A stretch of DNA of 46,393 bases from Pseudomonadota bacterium (GTDB lineage: Bacteria; Pseudomonadota; Alphaproteobacteria; GCA-2731375), in assembly GCA_027623205.1 (NCBI GenBank), contig JAQBYC010000029.1:1-46393 (forward strand), read 5' to 3'. The notes under the pieces are model-generated. The model saw only the letters and a list, made by a program, of their open reading frames with translations. It had not been told where the DNA came from and ran no database searches. Positions 11,232-39,967 of the stretch are shown piece by piece. The translations under genes and the position numbers were made by a program. Position 1 is the first letter of the stretch. Every line of letters starts with the position of its first letter.

Positions 11232-11415
11232 TGTATCATCCAATGTTGATCGCCAGAGGTGCCCACGACGGTGTTTGACAGGCTGGGCGCTTAGCGCCAA
11301 CCTATCCCAGAATTGCTTTGTTTGCAGCTAGGAATAGGCGGGCGGCATGGCCAGGACCGCGATGCGGGCCATGCGCGGTTGTTTTAGATTTGTGACTTTG
11401 TGAAGGAGTATTGTG

Positions 11416-12423
11416 ATGAGCGAGGCGCGGGTGGATACGGTTCGGCTGCAGACCATGGTGAAGGGTTTCTGGGAATCCGCCGCTTTGATGAGCGGCGTGG
11501 AACTGGGGCTGTTCACGGCCATTTCCCAGGGCCGGAAAACCATTACCAGCGCCGCTGCCGCCATGGGCATCGAGGGGGAGAACGCCGAACGCCTGATGAC
11601 CGCCCTGACCGCCATGAAACTGCTGCAGCGTGATGGCGACAGCTTTTCGAATGCGCCGGATGTGGAACGTTTTCTGGTTCAGGGCGCGCCCAGCTATGCC
11701 GGGCCATGGATGCTGTTTGGCAAACCGCAATGGAACGAATGGGGCAACCTGACCGCGCATCTGCGCCAGCCCAAGGCGGCGCAAAAGGTTCTGGGAAAAT
11801 ACGATGACAGCTTCACGGTGGCGCGGGCGAGGGCCTATCACGAGGCAACCTACTCCATCGGCATGGGCGCGGCCCGGCGGTTTCATAGACAGGTTGATCT
11901 GACGGGACGGCGGCGGATCATGGACCTGGGCGGCGGTTCAGGTTGCTATTGCATAACGGCCGCCAATGCCTATCCGGAGATCACGGCAGTGGTCCTGGAT
12001 CTGCCCTCTGTGGTGGTGGTGACCCGCGAATTCATTGCCGAGAACAACGTGGAAAGCCGCGTCGCGGCCGAGGCCTGCGATTTCACCGCCGATCCCTTGC
12101 CCAATGATGCAGATGTGGCGATCATGGCCTCCAACCTGCCGCAATACAGCCGTGAAATTATTGCTGGCGTCGTACAACGGGTGCATGACGGGTTGCTGCC
12201 GGGCGGTGAGTTCCACCTGATCGGCGAAATCCTGGACGATGACCGCCGCGGCCCCATCGGACCCGCCTTGTGGGGCCTGTCCGAGGCCGTCAGCGAATCC
12301 ACCGGGCTGGCCCATTCAGAGGCCGATGTCATCGGCTACCTGGCAAATGCGGGTTTTAGAGACGTCACGGCCACGGAATTCATTCCCGGCACGCTGACCC
12401 GCATCACCGGTCACAAAGCCTGA
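11416..12423 (+). CDS. SAM-dependent O-methyltransferase
   Basis: A 335-residue protein laid out like small-molecule O-methyltransferases of the hydroxyneurosporene or acetylserotonin type. A winged-helix dimerisation domain (about residues 1-100) holds LGLFTAIS and LMTALTAMKLLQ. A Rossmann domain follows with the SAM glycine motif IMDLGGGSGCY and the acidic VVLDLPSV. It transfers a methyl group to a hydroxyl of an unknown substrate. AAGGAG lies seven bases before ATG 11416, which fits better than the GTG three bases upstream. It is followed after 20 bases by the structured repeat at 12444 and then by the SDR gene. Confidence 0.85.
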   Translation: MSEARVDTVRLQTMVKGFWESAALMSGVELGLFTAISQGRKTITSAAAAMGIEGENAERLMTALTAMKLLQRDGDSFSNAPDVERFLVQGAPSYAGPWMLFGKPQWNEWGNLTAHLRQPKAAQKVLGKYDDSFTVARARAYHEATYSIGMGAARRFHRQVDLTGRRRIMDLGGGSGCYCITAANAYPEITAVVLDLPSVVVVTREFIAENNVESRVAAEACDFTADPLPNDADVAIMASNLPQYSREIIAGVVQRVHDGLLPGGEFHLIGEILDDDRRGPIGPALWGLSEAVSESTGLAHSEADVIGYLANAGFRDVTATEFIPGTLTRITGHKA

Positions 12424-12443
12424 GGCCGGGCGGGGCCGTAACA

Positions 12444-12547
12444 AGAGCAATTTACAATTAAACGGGGTCGCTTTCGCGACTTAAGTAATTGGTTCAATTG
12501 CTCTAATCTTAAGGAGTCCAGGCATGTCTCAGGGGAACATGCTCGAG
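12444..12547 (+). repeat. Structured intergenic repeat, copy 1
   Basis: A 104-nt element that aligns without gaps to 26127-26230, with 88 of 104 positions identical. It folds into an outer stem (12444-12452 with 12496-12504), a middle stem (12455-12460 with 12486-12491), an inner GTCGC-TTTC-GCGAC hairpin (12467-12480) and a separate 3' hairpin (GCATGT 12522-12527 with ACATGC 12537-12542). Between the two structures is AAGGAG (12511-12516), seven bases before an ATG inside the 3' hairpin. It fills the gap between the methyltransferase and SDR genes. The repeat family was not recognised. Confidence 0.85.
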
Positions 12548-12565
12548 GATGCGGATAGATTATGA
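12524..12565 (+). CDS. 13-codon mini-ORF in the repeat, overlapping the SDR start
   Basis: The frame ATG TCT CAG ... TTA TGA encodes MSQGNMLEDADRL. It starts seven bases after a perfect AAGGAG supplied by the repeat, and its TGA overlaps the SDR start codon as ATGA. The SDR gene has no good ribosome binding site of its own; a GAGGA lies 12 bases away. Translation of the mini-ORF could therefore deliver ribosomes to the SDR gene. Its own ATG sits in the stem of the repeat's 3' hairpin. That it is translated is inference. Confidence 0.4.
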   Translation: MSQGNMLEDADRL

Positions 12566-13305
12566 CTGACAAGGCGATTTTGCACGTGGGCGCGGTGGCG
12601 CTGGTGACCGGCGCCAGTGCCGGCATTGGCCGGGCCGTGGCCGTGGCGTTGAGCGCACGCGGGGCGCGGGTCATTTGCGCCGCCCGGCGCCGGGACCGGC
12701 TGGAGGCCCTGGTCGGCGAACTGCCCGGGCCGGCCCTGGCCCTGGAGCTTGATATTGCCGATGGCGAAGCCGTCGACGGGCTGGTGGCGCGATTGCCCGA
12801 GGACTGGCGGCGGATCGATATTCTGATCAACAATGCCGGTCACGACCTGGGCGGCCGGCAGCCCTATCATCAGCGCGCGGCGGCGGATGTTGCCGCCGTC
12901 ATTCAGACCAATGTGACTGGGATGATGCGCACCACCCTGGCGATCCTGCCCGCGATGCGCGCGCGGGGCAGAGGGCATATCGTCACCATTGGCTCCGTCA
13001 ACGGCGTGGAATGGGTGGCCAACCACAGTGTCTATGTGGGCTCGAAATTCGCCGTGCATGGCTTCACCAACAGCCTGCGTCAGGAATTGCAGGGCACCGG
13101 CGTACGCCTGACCGAGGTCATGCCCGGCCTGGTGCGCAGCGAATTCGCCGCCGCGCGCTGGGGCGGCGATGAGGCCCGGGCGGCGGAATTCTATGGCCGG
13201 TTCGATTCCGCGCTTTCACCCGAGGATGTCGCCGACGCCGTGCTGTACGCCCTGGATACGCCGCCGCACGTCAACATTTGCGACCTGGTCCTGCGCCCCG
13301 CTTAA
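12562..13305 (+). CDS. Short-chain dehydrogenase/reductase (SDR), YdfG-like
   Basis: A 247-residue classical SDR. The cofactor motif is TGASAGIG, followed by AARRRDR, which suggests an NADP preference. NNAG is in INNAGHDLGG, the catalytic Ser is in TIGSVNG, and YxxxK is in SVYVGSK. It oxidises or reduces an alcohol or ketone of unknown identity; the overall form resembles serine or 3-hydroxy-acid dehydrogenases such as YdfG. Its start overlaps a 13-codon mini-ORF supplied by the repeat element. Its stop region overlaps the convergent luciferase-like gene by 4 bases. Confidence 0.88.
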   Translation: MTDKAILHVGAVALVTGASAGIGRAVAVALSARGARVICAARRRDRLEALVGELPGPALALELDIADGEAVDGLVARLPEDWRRIDILINNAGHDLGGRQPYHQRAAADVAAVIQTNVTGMMRTTLAILPAMRARGRGHIVTIGSVNGVEWVANHSVYVGSKFAVHGFTNSLRQELQGTGVRLTEVMPGLVRSEFAAARWGGDEARAAEFYGRFDSALSPEDVADAVLYALDTPPHVNICDLVLRPA

Positions 13306-24795: not shown

Positions 24796-25671
24796 ATGTT
24801 CAAGGGGTCGATTGTTGCGCTTATTACACCGTTCCGCGATGGCCAGGTGGATGAAGATGCACTGCGAAAACTTGTTGATTGGCATGTTGAGCAGGGCACT
24901 CATGGCATCGTGCCCTGCGGCACCACCGGGGAAAGCCCTACGCTGTCCCATGAAGAGCATGGCCGGGTGGTCGAAATCGTCATCGATCAGGTCGCGGGAC
25001 GCCTGCCGATCATTGCCGGCGCCGGTTCCAACAATACCGCCGAGGCGATCGCGCTGACCCTGCGTGCCCAGGCCGCGGGCGCGGATGCCGTGCTGCATGT
25101 GGCGGGTTATTACAATCGGCCGAACCAAGAAGGGCTATATCAGCATTTTAAGGCATTGCATGACGCAACTGATATTCCCATCATCGTCTACAACATTCCG
25201 CCCCGCGCCATCGTCGATATTCTGCCCGAGACCATGGAGCGGATGGCCGCATTACCTCGGATCGTCGGGGTAAAAGATGCCACTTGCGATGGTTCCCGGA
25301 TCAGCCGTGAGCGGCTTTTGATCGGTTCCGACTTCTGCCATCTGTCAGGCGAGGATCCCACCGCGTTGGCCTATAACGCTCATGGCGGAGATGGCTGTAT
25401 TTCCGTGACAGCCAATGTGGCGCCGAAACTGTGCGCGGAATTTCAGGAGGCCTGCCAGGCAGGCGATTACGGTCTGGCGCTGAGTCTGCATGAGCGCCTG
25501 ATGCCCTTGCATATCGTGCTATTCCTGGAACCCAGCCCGGCGGGCACCAAGTATGCCGCCTGGCGTCTTGGCCTGTGCGAGGCCGAGGCGCGCCTGCCAG
25601 TGGTGCCTCTGACAAAAGCGACGGCGGAAAAAATCGACGTTGCCTTGCGCTATGTGGGTCTGCTTAATTGA
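24796..25671 (+). CDS. dapA: 4-hydroxy-tetrahydrodipicolinate synthase
   Basis: A 291-residue TIM-barrel aldolase, the normal DapA length. It condenses pyruvate with aspartate semialdehyde in lysine and diaminopimelate synthesis. The Schiff-base Lys is K160 in VGVKDAT, the catalytic Tyr is Y132 in VYNIPPR, and the [10 protein letters not shown] loop holds the paired Thr. AGGAGAG lies about four bases before the ATG. The stop is four bases upstream of the smpB start, so the two are co-transcribed. The lytic transglycosylase lies divergent upstream, which puts two cell-wall genes back to back. Confidence 0.96.
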
Positions 25672-25675
25672 CGCG

Positions 25676-26128
25676 ATGACCCGATCTGTTGCTGAAAACA
25701 GAAAGGCCCGCCACAACTATTTCATCGATGAAACGTTGGAGGCGGGCCTAATCCTGACCGGCACGGAAGTGAAATCCCTGCGCGCCGGTCAGGCCAGTAT
25801 TGCCGAGGCCTACGCAGTGGAGCGGGACGGCGCCTTGCAACTGATCAATGCCCATATTCCGGAGTACAAAGGCGGCAATCGCTTCAATCACGAGCCTCTG
25901 CGCCCGCGGCAACTGTTATTGCATAAACGCGAGATGGAACGCCTTACCAACGCGATCGCCCGCGCCGGCATCACCGTGGTGCCCTTAAAGCTGTATTTCA
26001 ATGATCGCGGAATTGCCAAAATTCTCCTGGGCATCGCCAAAGGTAAAAAGCAGCATGACAAGCGGGCCACGATCAAGGATCGGGATTGGAAGCGGGACCA
26101 GGCCCGTCTGCTCCGCAACCGGGGATAG
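25676..26128 (+). CDS. smpB: SsrA-binding protein SmpB
   Basis: A 150-residue protein that binds tmRNA and delivers it to stalled ribosomes. Recognisable parts are [10 protein letters not shown] at the start, [31 protein letters not shown], and the basic tail [19 protein letters not shown]. The start MTRSVAENR is chosen because it matches the usual SmpB N-terminus; it lies four bases after dapA. The TAG stop is also the first base pairs of repeat copy 2, so the 3' end of the mRNA passes into that structure. The tmRNA gene is not in this window. Confidence 0.96.
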
Positions 26129-26230
26129 AGCGGTTTTCAATTAATCGGAGTCGCTCTCGTGACTTAAGTAATTGGTTCAATTGCTCTATTCTTAAGGAGT
26201 CCGAGCATGTTTTAAGGACACATGCTCTAG
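26127..26230 (+). repeat. Structured intergenic repeat, copy 2
   Basis: A 104-nt element, 88 of 104 positions identical to 12444-12547. It begins inside the smpB stop codon. Where it differs in stems the pairing is kept: the outer stem has GG in place of AA opposite TT (G-U pairs), and the inner hairpin is GTCGC-TCTC-GTGAC with one G-U pair. The 3' hairpin is longer here (GAGCATGT 26203-26210 with ACATGCTC 26220-26227). AAGGAG (26194-26199) again lies seven bases before an ATG, but here the frame stops after two codons. It separates smpB from the convergent uracil-DNA glycosylase gene. Confidence 0.85.
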
Positions 26231-36882: not shown

Positions 36883-36985
36883 CCAGAGCGCATTTGCCCC
36901 CAATGAGCTCGAAATATTCAAAACAGCGCAAATGCACCAGTTACCCAAGCCGCGTTCGCGGCTCCAACCAATTGAAAATCGTTCT
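36883..36985 (-). repeat. Probable diverged copy 3 of the structured intergenic repeat
   Basis: Read on the minus strand, the first 57 bases from TAGAACGATTTTCAATTGG match copy 2 at about 41 of 57 positions; the rest is weakly similar. The inner hairpin is GCCGC-GAAC-GCGGC, so one T-A pair of the other copies has become C-G with both partners changed. As in copy 2, the element starts in the stop codon of the preceding gene (YejA-like, TAG at 36984-36986). The AAGGAG-ATG part is not conserved. Confidence 0.5.
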
Positions 36986-38801
36986 AGTTGCGCTGTTGAT
37001 CGATTATACCGGCCTTGGCCGGATCCTCCCACCAGGTTTCCAGGCGATAGCCATAAAGCGGCGTTAGGGCGGGACGGCCAAAGCGGTCCCACAGGGCGAT
37101 CCGGTCTGACTTCAGGTGGAACAGGGGAATGACATAGTGCCCCCATTGCAGCACCCGGTCCATCGCACGAACGGCGGCGACCAGACTGGCGCGGTCTGGT
37201 GCGTCCGAAATCTTTTGCACTAAACTGTCGATGGCGGGCACCTGGATGCCGGGATAGTTGCGGCTGCCATCTCGCTTGGCGGCGTCCGCACCCCAATAAA
37301 ACGCCTGCTCGTTACCTGGCGAAAGGGAGGGGTCCCACAAATAGATCATGGCGTCGAAATCATAGGTATTGGCGCGTTGCTGATATTGTGGCGTATCCAC
37401 TGTGCGGACGGCGACCTCGATACCCAGTTTGGCCAGATTTCGGGCCAGGTGCAGAGCCAGTTTTTCGTTACTGCGGCGCAGCAGCATGATTTCAAAGCGA
37501 AACGGCTTGCCGCCGTTGTCATGCACCAAATGCAGATTTTTAACATGCCAGCCGGCCTGGGCCAGCAGCTTGCGCGCCGTGTGCAGATTGCCCCGCAGCC
37601 GGCCGCTGCCGTCCGTTGCGGGCGGGGTATAGGCCTGGGTGAAGACTTCCTTCGGCAGGCTGTCACGGTAGGGCGCCAGCAAAGCGAGTTCGGCGCTCGA
37701 AGGGGGCCCCGTGGCGGCCAATTCCGAATTTTCGAAATAGCTGCGGGTACGGTGATAGGCATCGTGATAAAGGGTTTTATTCAGCCATTCGAAATCGAAG
37801 GCATAGGCCAGGGCAGCGCGAACTTTTGCCTCGTGAAACACTGTGCGCCTGGTATTCAGGGCGATGGCATGCATGCCAGCCGGCCGGCCATGACTGAATT
37901 CCAGCAGGCGGACCGCCCCATTGTTTCTTGCCGGGAAATCATAGGATTTGGCCCAGAGTTTTGGATCGGATTCCGCCCGCAGGTCGACCTTGCCCGCCTT
38001 GAAGGCCTCCAGCGCGGCGCTGTCATCGCGGTAATAGTCGTAGCGGACAATATCGAAATTGTACTGGCCTTTTTGCGCGGGCAGGTTTTCCGCCCAATGA
38101 TCCTTGATGCGCCGGTATTGGATCGAGCGGCCGGGATCAACAATATCCATGATATAGGGACCGCTGCCCAGCACGGGGGCCAGGGAAACACGATCGAACT
38201 CCCGGCTTTGGAACCAGGCCCGCGAGAGAATTGGCATCAGGCCCATGATCAGTGGCAGTTCCCGGTTGCGGTTATCCTTGAAGCGAAATGTTACGGTGCG
38301 GGGGGCGGGTCGTTCGATTGCGGCGACTTGAGCATAGTAAAAACGGTGGTTGGGCCGGCCCTTGGCGCGCAGGATCTCGTGGGAAAAGATCACATCTTCG
38401 ACGGTGATTTCACTGCCGTCGTGAAAGCGGGCGCCGGGGCGCAGGCGAAAGGTCACCGAGCCCCGGTCGGGCGGCGTGGCAATGTCCTCGGCGATCAGGG
38501 CATAAAGCGTGAAGGGTTCGTCATAGCCGCGGGCCAGCAGGCTTTGATGGCTCAGCTGCCGACCGTCAACGCGGGCGCCGCGAACAATGAAATGCTGTAG
38601 AGAATCGAAACTGCCAACGCGTCCCAAAACCAGACGTCCACCCTTGGGCGCCGTTGGGTTGACGTAGCGGAAATGACCTTCGTCGGGGCTATATTTCGGC
38701 GTGCCGTGCATGGCAATGGCGGGCGCCGCCGTCGCGCCGCCGCAACTCAAGCCGATCGAGGCTGCCAACGAAAGCATCAGCGTTGTACAGAAATATTTCA
38801 T
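36984..38801 (-). CDS. Extracellular solute-binding protein family 5 (YejA-like)
   Basis: A 605-residue periplasmic binding protein of the oligopeptide/microcin C type. MKYFCTTLMLSLAASIG is the signal peptide. YejA-like features are HGTPKYSPDEGHFRYVNPTAPKGG, TFRLRPGARFHDG and VEDVIFSHE. Proteins of this subgroup bind peptides or antibiotic-like compounds for ABC import. No permease or ATPase gene lies next to it, so it is an orphan here. Its start overlaps the stop of the MFS gene as TGATG, so both are co-translated. Its stop lies in the diverged repeat. Confidence 0.9.
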   Translation of the reverse strand: MKYFCTTLMLSLAASIGLSCGGATAAPAIAMHGTPKYSPDEGHFRYVNPTAPKGGRLVLGRVGSFDSLQHFIVRGARVDGRQLSHQSLLARGYDEPFTLYALIAEDIATPPDRGSVTFRLRPGARFHDGSEITVEDVIFSHEILRAKGRPNHRFYYAQVAAIERPAPRTVTFRFKDNRNRELPLIMGLMPILSRAWFQSREFDRVSLAPVLGSGPYIMDIVDPGRSIQYRRIKDHWAENLPAQKGQYNFDIVRYDYYRDDSAALEAFKAGKVDLRAESDPKLWAKSYDFPARNNGAVRLLEFSHGRPAGMHAIALNTRRTVFHEAKVRAALAYAFDFEWLNKTLYHDAYHRTRSYFENSELAATGPPSSAELALLAPYRDSLPKEVFTQAYTPPATDGSGRLRGNLHTARKLLAQAGWHVKNLHLVHDNGGKPFRFEIMLLRRSNEKLALHLARNLAKLGIEVAVRTVDTPQYQQRANTYDFDAMIYLWDPSLSPGNEQAFYWGADAAKRDGSRNYPGIQVPAIDSLVQKISDAPDRASLVAAVRAMDRVLQWGHYVIPLFHLKSDRIALWDRFGRPALTPLYGYRLETWWEDPAKAGIIDQQRN

Positions 38802-39967
38802 CAATTTTGCCGCCGTTGAAATCGCAAAGACATCCAGGCCGCTGAAGCGACGACCGGCAGCATGATAAATCCACCCATCAACATGGGCCAGTTCGGCCCC
38901 AAGTGAGTGAACAGCAGACCGGCCAAGGGGGGGCTGGTGATCCGGCCAATGGTTACCAGGCCGTTGGCGGCACCCATAACCGTGCCCTGATGCGCCGCCT
39001 CAGTCCGCTGCGAAATCATCGCCGTCAGTGTGGGGTGGCAGAAGGATGTCCCCATGCAGAGCAACAATGTGTCGCCGGCAAAGGTCATGATGCCATTGAC
39101 CCAAGGCACCAGGAACAGGCCCGTGCTAAGCGCCGAAGCGCCGAGCAACAGAACCCTTGGCCCGCCAATTTTCCGGGTTAACGGGCCCACGAGAACGCCC
39201 TGCAGGAATGCCACCAGGATGCCAATATAGACGTAGCCAAAACTAACCTGACGGGCGCTCCAGCCCAGCCGGGCCTGACACCAAAGCGGGAACAGGACCA
39301 TCAGGGCGGTAAAGGCGAAGCCGACCAGAAAATTCAAACCGATGATGGCTGGTATACCGTTGTTGCCGACGGCTGTCCGCAGTTGCCTGAAATTTACCGA
39401 GCCGGGCCTTCTCTTCTTGTGTTGGGGCGGTTCACTGAGCAGGAACAGGCCAAGCAGCACGGCGGCGGCGGAAATGCCGGCGGCAACCAGACAGGGCAGT
39501 GAGAAATCCGCCGCGCCGGGTTGTACGCCGATCAATAGTCCGCCCAGCGCCGGGCCAACCACGAAGCCAAGGCCAAAGGCGGCGCCCAGCCGTCCCATGG
39601 CGCCGGCCCGGTCGTCTGCCTTGGAGATGTCCGCCATATAAGCCTGGGCCACAGCTATATTACCCGCCATGGCGCCGCTTAGCGCACGGGCCACGAACAG
39701 GCCAGCCAGACTGCTGGCAAGACCGAACCAGAGATAGGCCAGGGCACCCCCCGTGAGGGTCAGCAGCAGGATTGTTTTGCGTCCATAACGGTCGCTCAGG
39801 CGGCCCCAGAGCGGAGAGGAAATGATTTGCACCGCGGAATAGACCGCCACCAGCAGGGTGATCTGCACCGGCGTGGCGTCGAAGGCCTGCGCATACAACG
39901 GCAGGATTGGCAGGATGATGCCAAAGCCGACGAGATCGATGAAAACCGTCAACAACAAGACAAACAT
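38801..39967 (-). CDS. MFS transporter, TetA-like drug efflux family
   Basis: A 388-residue twelve-segment major facilitator. The loop 2-3 motif A is GRLSDRYGRKTIL; the first segment begins LLTVFIDLVGFGIILPILPL, as in TetA-type tetracycline and other antiporters. Segment 5 has the GPALGGLL part of motif C. It is likely a proton-driven exporter in the inner membrane. It is coupled to a YejA-like peptide-binding protein, an unusual pair that joins an exporter with an import-type receptor. The substrate is unknown. Confidence 0.9.
   Translation of the reverse strand: MFVLLLTVFIDLVGFGIILPILPLYAQAFDATPVQITLLVAVYSAVQIISSPLWGRLSDRYGRKTILLLTLTGGALAYLWFGLASSLAGLFVARALSGAMAGNIAVAQAYMADISKADDRAGAMGRLGAAFGLGFVVGPALGGLLIGVQPGAADFSLPCLVAAGISAAAVLLGLFLLSEPPQHKKRRPGSVNFRQLRTAVGNNGIPAIIGLNFLVGFAFTALMVLFPLWCQARLGWSARQVSFGYVYIGILVAFLQGVLVGPLTRKIGGPRVLLLGASALSTGLFLVPWVNGIMTFAGDTLLLCMGTSFCHPTLTAMISQRTEAAHQGTVMGAANGLVTIGRITSPPLAGLLFTHLGPNWPMLMGGFIMLPVVASAAWMSLRFQRRQN

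Follow-up and report, generated by a model that had tools for sequence, protein, structure and literature searches.

The window, by which we mean the whole 46,393-nucleotide stretch of DNA analysed here, carries copies of an abundant, recently mobile family of palindromic repeats. We consider it likely that these are non-autonomous mobile intergenic palindromic repeats like Bru-RS, the rhizobial REP elements or MITEs. As far as present searches show the family is new in sequence and previously unrecorded, while elements of its kind are well known; it is not a newly found regulatory RNA.

A first-pass annotation had described two ungapped copies of a structured repeat, each with a long 5' stem-loop and a separate 3' hairpin. 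Alignment of the two (12444-12547 and 26127-26230) confirmed 88 of 104 bases identical without gaps, and the fold of both has the 5' stem-loop and 3' hairpin layout, each copy folding better than 200 dinucleotide shuffles (z -4.5 and -5.2). Searching with R1, a covariance model derived from 89 copies in the genome, placed the limits of the full element slightly beyond the 104 bases first noted, and matched a third copy that the annotation had overlooked. The features in the window are as follows.

11413-12423, + strand: O-methyltransferase gene, neighbour of copy 1
12442-12547, + strand: full repeat copy 1, subfamily A1 (covariance model); site empty in sister genome G010
12444-12505, + strand: 5' stem-loop of copy 1, with predicted outer, middle and inner stems (fold prediction)
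12520-12544, + strand: predicted 3' hairpin of copy 1 (fold prediction)
12562-13305, + strand: short-chain dehydrogenase gene, neighbour of copy 1
26125-26230, + strand: full repeat copy 2, subfamily A1 (covariance model); site empty in sister genomes G010 and G002
36883-36987, - strand: third, older copy (R1 match of 62.5 bits, E 3e-12)

At copy 2 and at the third copy the insertion border coincides with the stop codon that ends the gene before it. For smpB (25640-26128, +) this codon is the terminal TAG of copy 2 (26126-26128), and the CTAG of the third copy (36984-36987) contains the one that closes a solute-binding-protein gene (36984-38804, -), with an enoyl-CoA hydratase gene as the downstream neighbour. 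Elsewhere in the window, at 348-484, a 62-nt unit is present within an open frame as two direct copies, 73% identical and 75 bases apart.

The genome to which the window belongs is a 5.02 Mb draft in 228 contigs. An 18-base core pattern, allowing up to 3 mismatches, was found at 305 places in it, compared to 0 for the reversed control, and a pattern for the 3' hairpin gave 301 strand matches, with many palindromic sites contributing one match on each strand. The repeats cover approximately 0.6% of the genome. With about 300 genomic copies, the annotation was right to propose a structured intergenic repeat family, and the outcome that it had named as speaking against the idea, a genome holding only these copies, is not what we found. 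Across 11 genomes of the genus the core matched 305, 139, 106, 100, 74, 49, 38, 20, 19, 12 and 5 times, so that all 10 of the other genomes examined have the repeat (5-139 core matches each), and R1 had matches in all 11. In other genera of the order R1 found nothing except one marginal match (G014, E 8e-4). BLAST against a sample of genomes from another 26 families of the class, a search of a plasmid collection, and the Rfam covariance models at both gathering and permissive thresholds returned no match. All of the named records that match 27 bases exactly are metagenome-assembled genomes, with Rhodospirillaceae or Alphaproteobacteria as their label, and from the labels of the isolates having this match (SI072_bin90, BS150m-G9 and PW10.maxbin2.068) we infer a marine source for the hosts.

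The element is approximately 105 bp long and consists of two hairpins joined by a conserved linker, TTCTTAAGAGTC. Its consensus is CTAGAGCAATTTTCAATTAATCGGAGTCGCTNTCGCGACTTAAGTAATTGGTTCAATTGCTCTATTCTTAAGAGTCCGGGCATGTTT....GAAACATGCTCTAG, the full ends are CTAGAGCA...TGCTCTAG (the end sequences are also written GAGCAATTTT and GAGCATGTTT), and the terminal inverted repeats are imperfect, CTAGAGCAATTTT matching CTAGAGCATGTTT at 11 of 13 positions in the consensus. The short repeat unit has no coding capacity, which together with the terminal inverted repeats is typical of MITEs. Copies fall into subfamilies A1, A2, B and C, the differences lying in the 3' hairpin and at the tip of the 5' one; B copies are about 95% alike, and sister species carry their own versions, some with longer inner hairpins. 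Four copies (L059, L066, L073 and L077) have the 5' module only and end right after it, while no solo 3' module was found and the whole unit was present at 28 of 29 loci. Tandem head-to-tail arrays with a 101-bp period occur at L197 and L261, with three copies in G010 and two in the window genome.

All five of the occupied sites we examined, including both first-noted window copies, were empty in at least one sister species, so that these copies are recent insertions; insertion polymorphism of this sort is another feature of MITEs. At L044 the insertion point reads CTAG in the sister genome, and at most empty sites, where the intergenic sequence has diverged, the exact junctions are blurred. 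CTAG is enriched at both borders of the repeat, with no preference or conservation outside it, and no target-site duplications of 2-9 bp beyond CTAG were found above shuffles, only the fixed CTAG/TA at both ends. Gene neighbours could be called for 49 of 110 copies using a home-made codon model, and the intergenic placement rests on these called neighbours, about half of the copies. Flanking gene pairs were convergent in 16 cases and divergent in 6 (p 0.05), and the orientation of the repeat relative to neighbouring genes had no preference (13 to 14), an orientation bias apparent with 26 copies having disappeared with 49. A palindromic non-coding repeat of about 100 bp in many copies between genes is what characterizes Bru-RS and rhizobial REP-like elements. 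IS630 (DDE_3), Y1_Tnp and DDE_Tnp_1 loci were considered as autonomous partners and not supported: none of the 17 loci around such genes was bounded by matching ends, in a draft that is broken at insertion sequences. Multi-copy insertion sequences break draft contigs, and a source element may be missing from the assembly.

The repeat serves an IS4-family insertion sequence as a landing pad. This element (transposase NF033591, L107 1504-2511, -) has ends that read GTCGTGTAGTGTG outwards, and 13 of its 15 ends in the window genome (L105-L117, L119 and L120) lie inside a repeat copy, always at one position; a preferred landing site for an insertion sequence is again a feature of the Bru-RS and rhizobial REP-like kind. 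On one side the flanking sequence begins at element position 19-22 and on the other at 26-28, all flanks being in the same register and some of them short and modestly above shuffles (L107 and L117). Many draft contigs end within the insertion sequence and no contig holds both ends of a single insertion, so the 9-bp target duplication we propose, AATCGGAGT, is inferred from the overlap of flanks across the population of ends. A second insertion sequence, an IS5-family element with GTCGGCTGTTAAAAAGC ends, has entered a repeat copy in its linker and is flanked by TCTCTA at either end (L298:445-2080). We had considered that locus as an autonomous version, with the transposase between the 5' and 3' modules; it is really the IS5-family element inside a normal copy.

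The first-pass annotation had also proposed selection on RNA structure, from changes between the two copies that keep pairing through G-U. Six of the 16 differences are at unpaired positions and 10 in stems. Six of these stem differences are single changes that do pair in both copies through G-U, as claimed. At two more (12454 and 12520) copy 2 restores a pair broken in copy 1, and the last two (12528/12536) face each other in a pair that neither copy forms.

An A-C change pairs only on the other strand, so that selection on a transcript should favour G-U over its mirror A-C, and should also push compensated double changes above chance. We scored single changes at Watson-Crick pairs within subfamilies in the 89 copies, leaving out target-site pairs. 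An RNAalifold consensus over all copies was poor, due to decayed copies and mixed subfamilies, and pairs were therefore counted on the stated structure. Within subfamilies 89 single changes gave G-U, 67 gave A-C (p 0.09) and 149 broke the pair; as distinct events G-U and A-C numbered 54 and 43 (p 0.31). Compensated double changes numbered 9, compared to 8.1 in shuffles. Transitions at unpaired positions (222 of 377) predict about 29% G-U, and 29% was observed. With the G-U share at its neutral expectation, individual copies decay much as neutral sequence does, and selection on the RNA structure of single copies is not supported. Changes are less frequent at stem positions than at unpaired ones, a comparison biased by the copies having been collected partly with a pattern for the 5' arm. 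The annotation had itself named stem substitutions that break pairing as often as not as evidence against its claim, and that is what the 89 copies show; the impression of a G-U pattern given by the two window copies reflects a small sample. Differences of the G-U type between two copies are no evidence of RNA function, and within one genome the A-C mirror class is the comparison that pair changes require.

The result is different when the sequences of subfamilies and species are compared with one another, where compensatory changes keep the hairpins and 97.3% of cells are paired. In an alignment of lineage sequences, where some species rows are one representative copy and not a consensus, 5 pairs changed on both sides compared to 2.2 in shuffles, and 4 of 500 shuffles reach 5. 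All 89 copies together gave 46 two-sided cells against 16, a signal that comes mainly from differences between subfamilies. The simplest joint reading of decay within and conservation between lineages is that structure or end symmetry matters for propagation.

That the family consists of structured RNAs with a function (as 3'-UTR elements, riboswitch-like elements or a small RNA) whose pairing is selected in each copy appears highly improbable to us. The predicted fold on the given strand is strong, lineage sequences show compensatory changes, and the 16 convergent to 6 divergent gene pairs indicate some preference for positions downstream of genes, but stem changes within subfamilies are neutral in pattern, orthologous sites in sister species do without copies, orientation relative to neighbouring genes is unbiased, those genes are unrelated to each other, and there is no Rfam match. 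Compensatory changes between subfamilies might instead come from templated repair of the quasi-palindrome, one arm being copied from the other, and not from selection. At L198 in G004 the 5' arm of the copy has become the complement of the 3' arm, making the copy a near-perfect palindrome; this suggests arm-to-arm repair, yet it is a single clear case, and subfamilies otherwise keep the asymmetry of their 5' arms. We regard repair as the source of these changes as rather unlikely. It bears only on why hairpins persist, to which it could contribute, and is compatible with a mobile element.

Two further possibilities concern how the repeat is moved. The palindromic, intergenic, two-hairpin layout, the hairpins kept between lineages and the two Y1_Tnp genes of the window genome would suit a REP/REPIN-type element moved by a RAYT (TnpA-REP), a tyrosine transposase that would act on its single-stranded hairpins. 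By definition such elements have a GTAG (or CGTC) foot and a unit of 20-40 bp (PMC3733652), whereas the consensus here is without either foot and 105 bp long, and neither of the two Y1_Tnp loci has a repeat nearby, so that we hold this explanation to be very unlikely. It is similarly doubtful that the conserved bipartite hairpin with its conserved linker TTCTTAAGAGTC is read, as a folded single strand of DNA or RNA, by some mobilising system other than a RAYT or a classical transposase that reads terminal inverted repeats; if true, folding of the source copies would decide which lineage spreads.

The favoured reading, a non-autonomous mobile repeat, takes as directly observed the high and very unequal copy numbers, genus restriction, empty sites, subfamilies, non-coding sequence and decay of copies. 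A putative transposase would copy the repeat in trans, most likely a DDE enzyme that recognises the CTAGAGCA ends and uses TA/CTAG targets. The repeat itself inserts between genes, frequently at sites resembling CTAG and in some cases at TAG stop codons, and multiplies in bursts of subfamilies. If only structurally intact source copies propagate, hairpins would be conserved between lineages yet decay within them; their maintenance between source lineages fits a requirement of the propagating element. The family adds a large, recently active repeat to those of uncultured marine alphaproteobacteria, and is a natural data set on how such repeats spread, decay and act as landing pads.

Known systems resemble this repeat to differing extents. 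GTAG-tagged REPs and REPINs are likewise non-autonomous hairpin repeats between genes; the present family differs in having no GTAG tag, a longer bipartite unit and no RAYT association at the two Y1_Tnp loci. MITEs are similar in being short and non-coding with terminal inverted repeats, subfamily bursts and presence or absence between relatives, although here no autonomous parent was found among 17 loci and no target-site duplication was seen beyond the fixed CTAG/TA. The REPs of Sinorhizobium meliloti are alphaproteobacterial palindromic intergenic repeats also targeted by an IS4-family element, ISRm22, all copies of which lie inside them (PMC1525189). ISRm22 makes 6-bp duplications at the palindrome axis, whereas here the two flanks share 9 bases (element positions 19-27), where the middle stem of the 5' stem-loop meets the inner one. 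Bru-RS1 and Bru-RS2 of Brucella (Halling & Bricker 1994) are described in the published accounts as repeats of about 103-106 bp and as a hot spot for IS711, with target YTAR (PMC2266754, PMC10800456, PMC2267715). They are alike in length and in being palindromic, non-coding, intergenic, high-copy, alphaproteobacterial and an insertion-sequence hot spot, a likeness drawn from their published description; the host is different, and the insertion sequence is of the IS4 family here and IS711 there. For the landing-pad role of the new repeat, IS711 at Bru-RS (PMC2266754) and ISRm22 at the REPs of rhizobia (PMC1525189) are precedents.
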